Of a stretch of DNA of 64,000 bases, positions 13,727 to 18,812 are shown in pieces; the stretch's first letter is position 1; each line of letters starts with the position of its first letter. The notes under the pieces were generated by a model. The model was not told the DNA's origin. It made no database searches and saw only the letters and a program-made list of their open reading frames with translations. The translations under genes and the position numbers were made by a program. Source of the stretch: Bacteroidota bacterium (GTDB lineage Bacteria; Bacteroidota; Rhodothermia; JANXDC01); contig JANXDC010000012.1 in assembly GCA_025059945.1 (NCBI GenBank), positions 124,001 through 188,000 on the forward strand, read 5' to 3'.

Positions 13727-15628
13727 TTAACGCTCCGGGCTGCGCCCGAAGAGATACAGAAACGCCACCAGTACGCCCGTACCCAGAGCGATCGAGATCC
13801 ACGGGGAAAGCCCAAAGGCGGTCGGAATATCCCCCAGGAGCATTCCGACCGCGGCCGCCAGCAGCGCATACGGCAGCTGGGTCTTGACGTGATCGATGTG
13901 ATCGCAGGCCGAAGACATGGAGCTCAAAATGGTCGTATCGGATATGGGAGAGCAGTGGTCCCCGAAAACGGCCCCGGCCAGCACAGAGCTGATCACCCCG
14001 TGTAGGATCAAGGTCTGCTCCGAAAGCGTCAAGCCCGCATCCAGGCTCAGCGTGTGGGCCAGCGGAATCACGAGCGGCATCATAATCGCCATCGTGCCCC
14101 AACTGGTGCCGGTGGCGAAGCTTATGGCCGCAGCGGTCAGAAAAACCAACACCGGAAGCCAATGCGGTGCGATCGCGCCGCGCAATAGGTCCACAAGGTA
14201 GTGGGCCGTATGCAGCTCCTCGGTCACGGCCCCAATGGACCAGGCCAGCACCAAAATGAGCATGGCCAGCAGCATGGCCTTAAGCCCACCAAACCAAGCC
14301 TCAAGGGCCTCTTTAAGGCTTAAGATGCGCTGCAGGACGCTGAGCAGAATCGCCACCAAGGATCCGGACAGCGACGCCCACAGAAGGGCCCGGTACGAGT
14401 CCGAATGGCTGATGATGGCCCCGATCGTGTACGAAGAGGCGCCTTGATTGCGCAGGGCCTCCATACCGGTTGTGTACAGCCCATATCCCCCGACTAGAAG
14501 CACGGCCAAAATGGGCAAGAGCCCGTTATACCAGCGCGCTGGACGGGATCCGTCGTCGATTGGGCTCGTGCTCTCCGTCAAATCCGTAGCCGGCCTTGAG
14601 CCCGGACGCAACACCTGTCCTGTGGCCCGGGCTCGTCGCTCCGCTTCCAGCATCGGACCGATGTCGCGCCCCAGAAGCGCAACCAGGAGAGCCAAAATCA
14701 GAGCGAAGATGGGATAGAACCGATACGGGATCGTTTGAATAAAGACCGCGTAGGCTTCCTCTGGCCACTGGATGAGCTTTAGACCCTGCTCGATTAGCCC
14801 CACCTCGTATCCGATCCAAGTCGAGATCAGAAAGATGCTGGCCACCGTGGCCGCGCCGGTGTCGACAAGAAAAGAGAGCTTTTCGCGTGAGATCCGCAAC
14901 CTGTCCGTGATGGGACGCATGAGGTTGCCGCGCACCAGCACGTTGGCGTAGTCGTCAAAGAAGATCACAAGCGCCATAAGCCAGGTGGCGATCTGGCCTC
15001 CGCGGGCGGTGCGGGCGTAACGGGTAATGAGGCTCGCTATACCCCGGGTACCCCCATTGCGGGCGATCACCCCCACCATCCCTCCGAAGAGCATACTGAA
15101 GAGGATGATCTGCAGATGGCTTGATTCGCTTAACGCCTTGAGCACGAAATGATCCAAGACCCGATATAGGCCCCCGATGGGATCGTAGTCAAACAAAAAC
15201 ACCGCCCCAAGCCAGATGCCCGCCACAAGCGCGATGATGACCTCCCGCGATAGCAGAGCCAGTAGAATCGCCACCAGCGGAGGCAACACGCTGAGCACCC
15301 CGGGGATGACCCGCACCACGTGGCTGGCCTCGAAGTCCGGCCCCATGATCCGGATCCTCTGGCGCCCCGCGTGGGCGAGCACGGCCTTCGGTAGACGCAG
15401 CTGGCCGTTTTCAAAACGCGCCTCGGATAACCCGTGAAGGCCCTCAAGACGCACCTTAGCCGAGAAGCCCTTTAGCACTTGCCCGGAGCTGTCGCGCGCC
15501 GTAACGGTGAGGGCAAACGGGATCCCCCGTAAGACCACCGAGGGGGCCTCAAAGACCCACTGCGCAGGAGCTTGGGCCCACCCGAAAGACGGCAAAAGCC
15601 CGATGAGCGCTACCAGCAGGCGCCGCAC
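13727..15628 (-). CDS. NhaC-family Na+/H+ antiporter with exported N-terminal domain
   Basis: Secondary cation antiporter of the inner membrane. About 12 membrane segments follow residue 112; motifs IIALVAGIWLGAVF, FFDDYANVLVRGNLM, SFATGTSWGTMAIMMPL and GDHCSPISDTTILSSM identify the NhaC group. Unusually, the first 20 residues form a signal peptide (RRLLVALIGLLPSFGWAQA) followed by a roughly 90-residue Ig-like beta domain (about 21-108) before the first transporter helix. The GTG start at 15628 follows AAAGGAG by 8 bases; a longer ATG start at 15676 is possible. 633 residues, against about 450-500 for plain NhaC. Lies 90 bases downstream of the TonB receptor on the same strand. Confidence 0.88.
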   Translation of the reverse strand: MRRLLVALIGLLPSFGWAQAPAQWVFEAPSVVLRGIPFALTVTARDSSGQVLKGFSAKVRLEGLHGLSEARFENGQLRLPKAVLAHAGRQRIRIMGPDFEASHVVRVIPGVLSVLPPLVAILLALLSREVIIALVAGIWLGAVFLFDYDPIGGLYRVLDHFVLKALSESSHLQIILFSMLFGGMVGVIARNGGTRGIASLITRYARTARGGQIATWLMALVIFFDDYANVLVRGNLMRPITDRLRISREKLSFLVDTGAATVASIFLISTWIGYEVGLIEQGLKLIQWPEEAYAVFIQTIPYRFYPIFALILALLVALLGRDIGPMLEAERRARATGQVLRPGSRPATDLTESTSPIDDGSRPARWYNGLLPILAVLLVGGYGLYTTGMEALRNQGASSYTIGAIISHSDSYRALLWASLSGSLVAILLSVLQRILSLKEALEAWFGGLKAMLLAMLILVLAWSIGAVTEELHTAHYLVDLLRGAIAPHWLPVLVFLTAAAISFATGTSWGTMAIMMPLVIPLAHTLSLDAGLTLSEQTLILHGVISSVLAGAVFGDHCSPISDTTILSSMSSACDHIDHVKTQLPYALLAAAVGMLLGDIPTAFGLSPWISIALGTGVLVAFLYLFGRSPER

Positions 15629-15718
15629 GACCCGACTCCTTTCGACTTGCCCACCCTGGATAGAGAAAGTGCGCAATGTTACGGCCTTTTTGCCCCCTCA
15701 GCAAGCCCTTACGGGGAA

Positions 15719-17941
15719 CTAGAAGTAGACCCGGTACAGAAGCCTGAGGTTGCGGCCCGGTTCGGGCATGATGCGCTTGACTCGCGATAGGTGATTCCGA
15801 TAGGCGGCGTCGGTCAGGTTCTGCAGGCCTAAAACCAGGGTATGCAGCAGCGCGCCGCCCGACCAGTAGTACTGAACCGAGGCGTCCAGGACGGCGTATC
15901 CCGGCGTGGGCTCCTCGAAGACGTCGACCCGTTCTTGACGCATGGCGAATCGGAGGCCTAAGAGCGCCGATAGCGCTCCGCTGCCGTAATGCAGCTCCAG
16001 GCGCCCCATCACGGGAGGTATCATGGGCAGGGGCTTGCGGGTATCGGCAAAGCCGCCCCAGACCCAACTGCTCGAGGCGAACAGGCCCCAATTCGCTAGC
16101 GGCCGCCACTCCAGAGCCCCCTCCCCGCCCCACAGGAGGGCGTCGGTGCCCATGTACTGGTAGATGGGCAACAGCGTTCTTGCGCTGATCCGGCCCGTGT
16201 TTCGAGGAAAGATGTAGCCCCGTATCCGATTGCCAAAGCCCGTAAGCCGCAGGCGCATCCCGGGCCGATTCCAACGCAGGGAGAGCTCGGCTCCGTGGCC
16301 CACTTCTCCGTCCAATTGGGGATTGCCGACCTCAAAAGAGTACGTGGCCAGATGGGGCCCCTCGGAGTACAACTCCTCCGGTTCCGGCGGCCGGAAGGCC
16401 CGCACAAGCCCCAGGCTCAGATCCAGTCCCGCAGGGAGAACGTAAGCGAGGGCTATAGAGGCCGATAGGTCGGCAAATTGCCGGGCGCGCATGAGCCCGA
16501 TGGTGCGCGAGATCCGCTCCCGATACGGACTGATCCAGCGGCCGTCGGCGCGCAACGCGGCGCGCACGATCCAAAGCCCGCGGGACCATTCCTGATAGGC
16601 GGCCGCAGCCAGATTGAACTCCCAGAGATCTGGGGTCGAAGACCCTAAGGCAGCCCACCGATCCCGGTAGCCCGCCTCCACACCCAAGGCCCCGTTGCGC
16701 AGCGGCCCCCAGCGCCTCTGCCGGGTGATCGCCCGAACCTGATAGGTAAATTGGGCAAATTCGCTCCCAATAAGGCCCTTTGACTCTAGCTCGCGCAGCC
16801 GAAACAGGGTGAGATCCTGTTTGAGTTGGAGCCGGCTCCAGGCGACCCATGGCAGATTGAACTCCCCCTGCGAGGCAAGCTGAACCCGATCCATCTCGAC
16901 TGTGACGCCCTCGGGGTGGGCGCCGACGAAGCCGCCCGGTATGCCGTATCGGGATCCGTACAGGATGAGAGCCCCTCCCAGGGTTCCCCAGGGGCGATCG
17001 ATTCCCCAGCCGACCGACCCTGTGGCCGTCTGCAGGGCCGTGTTGCGCAGCCTTCCGGAAGGCGTGCGCACGTCGGCCGCGCTTCGAACGGAAGCGTCCA
17101 CGCGGCCCGTGCCCTTAAGAGCGGGAAACCATAAGCCCACACCGCCGGCCAGCCCCCAGTTTACGGACTCCCCTTGCAAGCTTACGCTTCCGTGCAGGTG
17201 ATCGGTGCGCTCCATGGGGATGGCGCCGCGGACCACGTTGATCACGCCCGTTAGGGCCTTGGAGCCATAGAGCAACGCCTCCGGACCGCGCAGGATCTCA
17301 ATCCGCTCGGCCTGGAGCGGATCAACGGCCACCGCGTGATCCAGGCTCATCGCGGATAAGTCCCCGGTGCCTGCGCCATCTTCCAAGATGGTCAAGCGGT
17401 ATCCTCCCAGTCCCCGCAGCACGGGCTGGACCGTGGCCGGCCCCATGCCAGCAGAAGCCAGGCCTGGCTCGCCGCTGAGCGTCTCGGCCAGGGTGCGAGC
17501 CAGGCTCTGGCGCAGGCGCACGCCGTGTATCACGTCTCCCAAGCTACCCGCCAGGCCCTTGCGCGCCTCCAGATCCGCGGCCACCTCTACAGTCTGCATC
17601 ATGACGGCCGTGCTCGCCATGCGGATCTCTACGGTTGTGCGCGGGACCTGCACTTCCACGCGCAACGTTACGCTGTGATATCCGATTCGGAAGGCGCGCA
17701 AGGTATAACTTCCGGGAGGCACGTGGGCGATCTCGAAGCGGCCATCTTCGTGCGCGGTGGCGGATCGGTTGAGCTCCACTAGCAACACGGACGTCCAGCC
17801 CAATCCCTCGCCCGTGTCTCGATCCACAACACGCCCCTCCAGAAGGGCCGTTCGAACCTGAGCCCGACTCTGAGCGAAACTCAGAAGGAGCGCCCACAGA
17901 GCAATCCCGAAAGCCCTCCGGGGCAGGATGAGCCGTTTCAT
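15719..17941 (-). CDS. TonB-dependent outer-membrane receptor, ZnuD-like
   Basis: 740 residues. Signal peptide about 1-27 (ends QSRAQ), a carboxypeptidase-regulatory-like beta domain (about 30-108), a plug domain, and a barrel ending in RLLYRVYF with the terminal Phe of outer-membrane barrels. The plug contains QPVLRGLGGYRLTILEDGAG, then SLDHAVAVDPLQAERIEILR and GPEALLYGSKALTGVINVV, a pattern I associate with the ZnuD group of zinc receptors. It overlaps the upstream His-rich lipoprotein by ATGA. Zinc as substrate is inferred from the plug pattern and histidine-rich neighbours; copper or another metal is the main alternative. Confidence 0.85.
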   Translation of the reverse strand: MKRLILPRRAFGIALWALLLSFAQSRAQVRTALLEGRVVDRDTGEGLGWTSVLLVELNRSATAHEDGRFEIAHVPPGSYTLRAFRIGYHSVTLRVEVQVPRTTVEIRMASTAVMMQTVEVAADLEARKGLAGSLGDVIHGVRLRQSLARTLAETLSGEPGLASAGMGPATVQPVLRGLGGYRLTILEDGAGTGDLSAMSLDHAVAVDPLQAERIEILRGPEALLYGSKALTGVINVVRGAIPMERTDHLHGSVSLQGESVNWGLAGGVGLWFPALKGTGRVDASVRSAADVRTPSGRLRNTALQTATGSVGWGIDRPWGTLGGALILYGSRYGIPGGFVGAHPEGVTVEMDRVQLASQGEFNLPWVAWSRLQLKQDLTLFRLRELESKGLIGSEFAQFTYQVRAITRQRRWGPLRNGALGVEAGYRDRWAALGSSTPDLWEFNLAAAAYQEWSRGLWIVRAALRADGRWISPYRERISRTIGLMRARQFADLSASIALAYVLPAGLDLSLGLVRAFRPPEPEELYSEGPHLATYSFEVGNPQLDGEVGHGAELSLRWNRPGMRLRLTGFGNRIRGYIFPRNTGRISARTLLPIYQYMGTDALLWGGEGALEWRPLANWGLFASSSWVWGGFADTRKPLPMIPPVMGRLELHYGSGALSALLGLRFAMRQERVDVFEEPTPGYAVLDASVQYYWSGGALLHTLVLGLQNLTDAAYRNHLSRVKRIMPEPGRNLRLLYRVYF

Positions 17942-18366
17942 GGCGCAACCGTTACAGGTATGGCGGGGGTGCGAAAGTCCGCATGCCCGCCGTGCAGCAG
18001 CACGATTTCCAAGCTCGTCTGTCCGGCTGCTAGGCCGCGCAAATAGAAAGTCCAGCTGCTGCCGCTTCGAACCGAAGCGATGGCGCTGTTGGCCACGTTC
18101 AGCTGGAGCCTATACTCTGAGGGGTCGGGCTGAAAGGAGCGCTGGTTTTCGTCTAAGAAATACACCTCAATGGGTCCGAGCTCCTGACCAACACGCACCG
18201 AAAGAGAGCCTGTAACGCGCGCATCCCAGACGCGCACCACCTCTTGAGCGCCGATGCGCAACAGAAGCCCCTCGGCCTCCGCATGATCTTCATCGTGCCT
18301 GTGGCCAAAAAGCCCGCATCCCAGCCCGCCAAATAGAGCGAGCAAAAGCCAATAGTATCGCCGCAT
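17938..18366 (-). CDS. Histidine-rich lipoprotein, probable metal-binding partner of the TonB receptor
   Basis: 142 residues. Lipobox GGLGC with lipidation Cys17, then the metal-ligand-like stretch HRHDEDHAEAEG immediately after it. The rest is beta-rich (VRVWDARVTGSLSVRVGQEL; SWTFYLRGLAAGQTSLEIVL) with a late GGHADF. AGGAGGT lies 8 bases before the ATG. It shares an ATGA junction with the TonB receptor. Probably anchored to the outer membrane, where it could hand metal to or from the receptor; this role is inferred from position and the His/Asp/Glu cluster. The family was not recognised. Confidence 0.72.
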   Translation of the reverse strand: MRRYYWLLLALFGGLGCGLFGHRHDEDHAEAEGLLLRIGAQEVVRVWDARVTGSLSVRVGQELGPIEVYFLDENQRSFQPDPSEYRLQLNVANSAIASVRSGSSWTFYLRGLAAGQTSLEIVLLHGGHADFRTPAIPVTVAP

Positions 18367-18410
18367 GACACTAGACCTCCTTCGCTGAGATCAGCCAAGA
18401 CATGAAGCGG

Positions 18411-18746
18411 TTACGCACCCAGGAGGTCTCCCAGAGGAGGGGCGCGACCGGGACGCAGATGAACCGAAAGGCTGCGAGCAGAAGGCGCAGAAAACCAGGG
18501 GAGGCGGAGGCAGACTACCAGCTCCCCATTAGACCCAGAGGGGATAAACCACAATGCGCGCCCCGTATGCCAACACCAGAAGCAAGGGATCGCCTGTCCC
18601 TCAGCTTCGTGCCAGTGTCGCTGCTGTGGGGCTGCGTCGGCGCAAGAAGCGACCCAGATGACATGCCGATGCTCGGCCTCTGTCGGGGCCGGCACACTGC
18701 CTACAAGTAAGAGCGAGGCAAGCAGGCCAAGCAGAATCCGAGGCAT
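18411..18746 (-). CDS. Exported Cys/His-rich small protein, unknown family
   Basis: 111 residues, first gene of the candidate zinc operon. Signal peptide about 1-24 (LLGLLASLLLVGSVPAPTEA), followed by a run of possible metal ligands: EHRH, C35, HWHEAEG and CFWCWHTGR (CxxC plus His). The C-terminal half has a short hydrophobic stretch (ELVVCLRLPWFSAPS) and no recognised domain. No strong ribosome-binding site precedes the ATG, but a good promoter and an inverted repeat lie 33-66 bases upstream. A metal chaperone or sensor role is speculative; small exported Cys/His proteins of this kind do occur beside metal TonB receptors. Confidence 0.55.
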   Translation of the reverse strand: MPRILLGLLASLLLVGSVPAPTEAEHRHVIWVASCADAAPQQRHWHEAEGQAIPCFWCWHTGRALWFIPSGSNGELVVCLRLPWFSAPSARSLSVHLRPGRAPPLGDLLGA

Positions 18747-18778
18747 GCGGCAAGGCGGCTAGGGATTTTGCGAGGGGA

Positions 18779-18812
18779 AAATTAACTAACCCGGATCTGT
18801 ACAGCAATCCGG
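18779..18812 (-). promoter_or_regulatory. Promoter with overlapping inverted repeat upstream of the metal operon
   Basis: Minus strand: -35 TTGCTG (18807-18802), 17-base spacer, -10 TAATTT (18784-18779), start expected near 18771. The inverted repeat CCGGAT...ATCCGG (18791-18796 and 18807-18812) with the inner palindrome CTGTACAG (18797-18804) covers the -35 box. A repressor bound there would block polymerase. It does not closely match a classical Zur or Fur box as I know them. Confidence 0.55.

Follow-up and report, generated by a model that had tools for sequence, protein, structure and literature searches.

A probable metal-sensing arrest-peptide leader in front of a ZnuD-type uptake operon in Bacteroidota and neighbouring phyla

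A three-gene locus and its conservation

We analysed a stretch of 64,000 nt from a Bacteroidota bacterium (contig JANXDC010000012.1), referred to here as the window; all coordinates are window positions, and all features described for the locus are on the minus strand. Three genes follow each other in the order small exported protein (111 residues, 18411..18746), lipoprotein (142 residues, 17938..18366) and ZnuD-type TonB-dependent receptor (740 residues, 15719..17941). The first two are separated by 44 nt. The stop codon of the lipoprotein gene overlaps the receptor ATG within the sequence ATGA (17938..17941), which couples translation of the receptor to that of the lipoprotein; short gaps or overlaps at this place occur in many relatives. 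A first-pass annotation of this DNA had described the same three genes and the ATGA coupling, both of which we could confirm; the range it gave (15719–18812) ends 66 bases beyond the start codon (ATG) of the small gene. This analysis computed the sequences with their conservation and spacing, the RNA pairing, and the ligands and fold of the receptor. We conclude that the operon probably serves metal uptake under the control of an arrest-peptide leader that senses metal, the product of the first gene.

The nearest genome, ‘Bacteroidetes bacterium KatS3mg041’ (AP024675.1), shares the genus with the window genome and has a syntenic locus. Within the phylum, homologues of the lipoprotein were found in 48 of 198 sampled genomes. 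At the loci examined, a ZnuD-like receptor lies directly 3' of the lipoprotein gene in 40 of 41, and a small open reading frame (ORF) ending in R-x-P-P (RxPP) lies directly 5' of it in 37 of 41, so the three-gene order, whose conservation had been proposed as a check, is indeed kept. As just 7 of the roughly 1788 remaining ORFs at these loci end in this way, the co-occurrence is above chance. A scan of named genomes queried with the receptor alignment gave 403 relatives, and 77 loci were retained, from Bacteroidota, Gemmatimonadota, Latescibacterota, KSB1, Calditrichota, Zixibacteria and Neomarinimicrobiota. The lipoprotein gene is upstream of the receptor in 57 of the 72 named loci with sufficient upstream sequence, 43 of them with the leader too. 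Among the remaining 15, the lipoprotein gene is downstream in 9, and an RxPP leader stands immediately before the receptor in 11. The gene set holds together despite the changed order.

Several loci show variant arrangements. The order leader, receptor, lipoprotein is found in L121, L135, L137, L138, L145, L147, L152, L153 and L165, mostly from Gemmatimonadota. In L101, L107, L119, L126, L130, L132, L168 and comparable loci, the lipoprotein gene is preceded by a second, related ORF, and an RxPP leader was not found. Nor was one found in three genomes of genus g4 (G018, G108, G119), which have lipoprotein and receptor; regulation there must therefore differ. Locus L076 (G023) has a leader and a tandem lipoprotein without an adjoining TonB-dependent receptor, followed by an opposite-strand ORF resembling asparaginyl-tRNA synthetase.

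The leader and its C-terminal motif

The small protein starts with a predicted signal peptide (about residues 1–24). The three motifs pointed out in the first-pass annotation, EHRH (25–28), HWHE (44–47) and CFWCWH (55–60), are present and form a putative metal-sensor segment, H26-H28 / H44-H46 / C55-x-x-C58-x-H60. Close to the C-terminus lies the presumed arrest motif R101-A-P-P104, followed by LGDLLGA and the stop codon. The codons of the CFWC sensor (18573..18584) are 46 residues ahead of the arginine of the RAPP motif, which is encoded by CGC GCC CCT CCT (18435..18446).

Just five positions, H26, C55, R101, P103 and P104, are invariant across 37 leader homologues, with a mean column identity of 22%. 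The dN/dS of the leader is about 0.2. In a wider set of 73 non-redundant leaders, every sequence has a Cys 45–50 residues ahead of the RxPP arginine, and in 39 the distance is exactly 46; in shuffled leaders a Cys falls into this interval in 14.6 cases on average and in 23 at most. The ribosome exit tunnel holds some 30–40 residues, so that a Cys 46 residues before the arginine would have just emerged when Pro-Pro is decoded. A full CxxC is found in about half of the leaders, including that of the window, and the leaders carry additional HxH and other His residues. The tails read RAPP in 44, RGPP in 16, RSPP in 11 and RDPP in 2 sequences, with two to three residues beyond the motif in 63 of the 73. 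RAPP and RGPP have been described as the strongest arrest motifs and RSPP and RDPP as partly permissive; the ribosome is arrested while the two Pro codons occupy its P and A sites (PMC12992588).

Neither the small protein nor the lipoprotein reaches the cut-off of a curated family in Pfam or NCBIfam. The first-pass annotation had recognised no family for either; this stands for the lipoprotein but not for the small protein, which by sequence appears to be a remote, below-cut-off relative of DUF2946, formal membership not being claimed. It has the anatomy of an arrest-peptide leader of the CruR/CutF type, with stalling predicted, and like the CruR leaders it is the first gene of a metal-type operon with a TonB-dependent transporter.

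Pairing between the leader end and the lipoprotein start

Folding of the region from the RxPP codons through the lipoprotein start revealed recurring helices between the last leader codons and the start region. In L049, TTGGCTTAAT pairs with the start sequence AAGCCATG; in L068 it is the RAPP codons themselves, GCTCCTCCGA, that pair with TTGGAGGAG; and in the sister species (L047), CCCTCCGTT pairs with AACGGAGGG. Over 70 loci, the leader end and the lipoprotein start gave a mean z of −2.10, with p ≤ 0.05 in 39 loci and p ≤ 0.01 in 23. The controls stayed at background: leader sequence 36–72 nt 5' of the R codon against the same start (mean z −0.01; three loci with p ≤ 0.05), the same leader end against lipoprotein positions +30 to +70 (mean z 0.03; two loci) and partners swapped between loci (mean z 0.16; two loci). 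Since the pairing is lost when partners are swapped, it is locus-specific, which implies compensating change.

When a ribosome was modelled on RAPP, the mean accessibility of the start region rose from 0.43 to 0.52 (70 loci). A gain above 0.1 was seen in 30 of the 70 loci, compared with 2 of 70 when the ribosome was placed 45 nt upstream (Wilcoxon p = 2.4e-6). In the window, the 5' arm AGACCTCCT lies within the leader ORF (18421..18429), at +11 to +19 relative to the codon predicted to occupy the P site on stalling, and is complementary over 9 bases to the 3' arm AGGAGGTCT (18373..18381), which comprises the complete Shine-Dalgarno sequence of the lipoprotein gene. The pair probability of this helix reaches 0.89, and its 5' arm begins 11 nt past the first base of this P-site codon, at the leading edge of the ribosome. 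The corresponding helix of the sister species is significant (p = 0.005). A helix masking the next start within reach of the stalled ribosome, as in CutF and SecM-type leaders, is thus found family-wide, while the window helix taken by itself is not significant. A search for Rfam elements at the locus gave a chance-level match and nothing more.

The receptor resembles ZnuD

The receptor contains the Pfam domains CarboxypepD_reg (N-terminal), plug and barrel. A ZnuD-like plug had been noted from the sequence, and in agreement with this the top NCBIfam model is ZnuD (E = 8.7e-40), although the score of 137 bits misses the curated cut-off of 950 bits of that model (NF038289). The match to the ZnuD structure (PDB 4rdr) has an E-value of 7e-29; a profile of 29 relatives searched against the PDB gave ZnuD with 4.4e-88, and next the copper porin OprC with 1.9e-30. 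The AlphaFold model (pLDDT 83) has ZnuD as its best fold match (8.7e-47, TM up to 0.91). By NCBIfam, PDB profile and fold alike, ZnuD is far ahead of siderophore and vitamin receptors, with which the first-pass annotation had asked for comparison, and an identity as siderophore or B12 receptor is rejected.

The zinc site of ZnuD consists of Asp99, His100, Glu340 and His499 (PMC4557270). Counted along the alignments (chain and mature numbering differ by 14), they align to D201, H202, E384 and H530 of the receptor, its putative zinc ligands. None of the four varies among the 29 receptors reached via the lipoprotein or the window, a set not selected on H530. They are likewise invariant in the 77 further loci (106 of 106 homologues in total), where H530 does not count as independent evidence because that set was partly selected on the peptide GPHLA. 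The receptor is ZnuD-like by profile, modelled fold and predicted zinc ligands. The His/Asp-rich clusters of extracellular loop 3 of ZnuD are absent from it, and 13 scattered His residues are found instead; this would fit a division of labour with the lipoprotein.

As to the inner-membrane step, ZnuA was found neither in the window genome (G000) nor in 10 of 11 relatives searched, and ZnuABC was rejected as the partner. A ZIP transporter is present in the window genome and in all relatives searched; with ZnuA lacking, the metal probably crosses the inner membrane via ZIP.

The lipoprotein

The lipidation site of the lipoprotein is Cys17, and the sequence GLFGHRHDEDHAEAEG, which had been described beside it, follows directly. 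The structure model (pLDDT 89.7) shows a disordered acidic and His-containing tail (residues 18–32) and then an Ig-like beta-sandwich (33–141), which contains the loop H125-x-x-H128-x-D130. Among 34 lipoproteins, Cys17 and H125 are conserved in all, H128 in 30, D130 in 29 and H28 in 27, so the His residues are kept in homologues. The tails average 5.3 Asp/Glu, 0.2 Lys/Arg and 1.7 His, and 33 of the 34 have at least one His. From what is generally known of the acidic surface-export signal of Bacteroidetes lipoproteins, part of this acidity may serve as such a signal.

It is conceivable, though we find it doubtful, that the lipoprotein does not bind metal at all, the tail being just an export signal and the domain structural. 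The low Lys/Arg and high Asp/Glu content resembles acidic surface-export signals described for Bacteroidetes lipoproteins (PMC5080379), and the Ig-like fold is similar to that of S-layer and Big_2 domains. The nearly universal tail His, the conserved H-x-x-H-x-D loop and the close association with the receptor speak for metal binding. In six loci (L058, L061, L075, L076, L079, L082) the domain is tandemly duplicated within one protein of 272–294 residues.

Proposed mechanism

Gene 1 would encode an exported leader. Under metal scarcity, the translating ribosome would stall as the two prolines of R-A-P-P occupy its P and A sites, and would cover the end of the leader ORF, leaving the helix that hides the Shine-Dalgarno sequence of gene 2 unable to form. 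With the helix open, the lipoprotein and the translationally coupled receptor would be made (uptake ON). Plentiful metal would bind to the nascent chain at its His/Cys cluster, which at that point lies just beyond the exit tunnel, and release the stall, possibly by pulling or folding the chain and so freeing the ribosome; the helix would then form and translation of genes 2 and 3 would drop (OFF). The outer-membrane lipoprotein encoded by gene 2 would feed metal, through its His/acid-rich tail and His-bearing Ig-like domain, to the gene 3 product, a ZnuD-type TonB-dependent importer with a buried D-H-E-H site predicted to bind zinc. For an uptake operon, the logic of CruR (scarce metal, stall, ON) is sensible.

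We infer the stalling, the ON/OFF direction, the surface location and the capture of metal by the lipoprotein from these features, and zinc as a more likely sensed metal than copper. We see about an even chance for the full model, in which a zinc-sensing, His/Cys-bearing RAPP arrest peptide uncovers the Shine-Dalgarno sequence and thereby switches a ZnuD-type importer and its lipoprotein in several phyla, with the RAPP codons of some species acting as the anti-Shine-Dalgarno sequence so that the stalled ribosome sits on the inhibitory arm.

Several results weigh against the proposed mechanism. The leader is missing from 4 of the 41 loci. The window leader gives no match to Pfam PF11162 (DUF2946); 8 of 37 leader relatives match it weakly (best E = 1.6e-4), and ten further relatives reach at most 21.4 bits against a gathering score of 23.7. 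Compared with GC-rich shuffles of the same sequence, the window helix does not reach significance (duplex p 0.35; fold z 0.43), and with a modelled stalled ribosome the accessibility of the window start rises merely from 0.22 to 0.25; the case for an RNA switch hence rests on the family. Finally, the Zur-like box GTTA-N5-TAAC, a proteobacterial consensus only, showed no excess before the leader (7 of 80 against 8.4 expected), which at the same time suits control at translation. The window genome lacks the second Fur paralogue that some relatives have, so that no gene could be assigned as a dedicated Zur.

The sequences suggest zinc from the side of the receptor and copper from that of the leader relatives; the same switch might sense and import copper, as with CruR and OprC. 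DUF2946/CutF leaders are found mainly with copper genes, which also counts against the zinc model, OprC is the second-best receptor family and CxxC suits copper. We nevertheless consider copper unlikely: all four ZnuD zinc ligands are invariant in the receptor, whereas in the alignment OprC has no counterpart of D-H and H; the leaders have extra HxH and other His, and about half are without CxxC. Further, one survey, which describes RAPP leaders before TonB-dependent receptors in general, reports Cu-related ones to be absent from Bacteroidota.

Control by Rho-dependent termination instead of uncovering of the Shine-Dalgarno sequence is used by CruR, the closest characterised leader with a TonB-dependent transporter. 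It is rather improbable here in view of the short gaps to the next gene, about 40–160 nt in most loci, and of the locus-specific, compensating helices over the start region. A role of the small protein as a stable metal carrier, periplasmic or secreted, with an incidental RxPP, as its conserved signal peptide and His/Cys clusters might suggest, is very improbable, given that little besides H, C and RxPP is conserved, that RxPP tails are rare in other ORFs, that the Cys-to-R spacing is fixed and the last codons pair with the next start, and that neither the CruR nor the CutF protein was detected in cells. The first-pass annotation had made this protein part of a surface metal-capture relay; the invariant R-x-P-P, the Cys spacing and the RNA pairing are traits of a nascent-chain leader instead.

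Comparison with known systems

In the exported leader CruR of Bordetella pertussis (bp2923, DUF2946), copper is sensed by a CXXC motif and translation is arrested by a C-terminal RAPP three residues from the end; its gene comes first in an operon and is followed by that of a TonB-dependent transporter (PMC9426467). The leaders described here share this build, and the distance from CXXC to RAPP is 49 residues in CruR compared with 45–50 between Cys and R. CruR differs in its metal, copper, its BfrG/OprC-type receptor, a gap of 162 nt and Rho termination, whereas the operons here have a ZnuD-type receptor, extra His motifs, a short gap, a Shine-Dalgarno-masking helix and an added lipoprotein gene, and occur in other phyla. 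In CutF of Rhodobacter capsulatus, a copper leader, a stem-loop masks the Shine-Dalgarno sequence of the next gene (PMC9973294). CutF, too, is an exported DUF2946-like leader with a metal motif and a C-terminal Pro motif; there, however, expression of the next gene, which encodes a detoxifying oxidase, is switched on by copper, and the uptake logic here should be the reverse. The RAPP/RGPP arrest peptides ApdA, ApdP, ApcA and SecM combine a C-terminal arrest motif, an export signal and a position 5' of the regulated gene, but monitor the protein export machinery and not metals (PMC10951233, PMC12992588).

ZnuD of Neisseria meningitidis (4rdr, PMC4557270) is the best match of the receptor in sequence and fold, with its four zinc ligands retained, but lacks the N-terminal CarboxypepD_reg domain, has the His-rich loop 3 clusters and is not encoded with such a lipoprotein and leader. 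Pairs such as BtuG-BtuB of Bacteroides likewise have an outer-membrane lipoprotein gene beside that of a TonB-dependent transporter (PMC10404256); the lipoprotein here is small, Ig-like and thus of another fold, with metal in place of vitamin B12.

The metal-sensing arrest peptides characterised so far respond to copper, and most reported homologues of CruR are from Proteobacteria. We found no paper in the open-access literature that joins arrest peptides, zinc and TonB-dependent receptors; in that literature, control by metal arrest leaders is known for copper in Proteobacteria, and no description was found for zinc-type receptors or for these phyla. If the proposed mechanism is true, the principle covers zinc-type uptake as well and reaches into Bacteroidota, Gemmatimonadota and their neighbouring phyla, and zinc import would be controllable in such bacteria without a visible Zur box. 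With dozens of natural variants of the arrest motif locked to an RNA helix, the mechanism is directly testable. The lipoprotein would be a new partner of ZnuD-like receptors, perhaps substituting for the missing His-rich loop.

Neighbouring features

About 90–130 nt 5' of the leader, six loci of Balneolaceae (L053, L057, L086, L139, L140, L164) have the motif AAATTGTGTAATA in common, a candidate promoter element or operator. In the window, a gene for an NhaC-type antiporter (13727-15676) lies 42 nt downstream of the receptor gene, and this synteny is kept in the sister species. The antiporter has an exported N-terminal domain of about 110 residues ahead of its first membrane segment.

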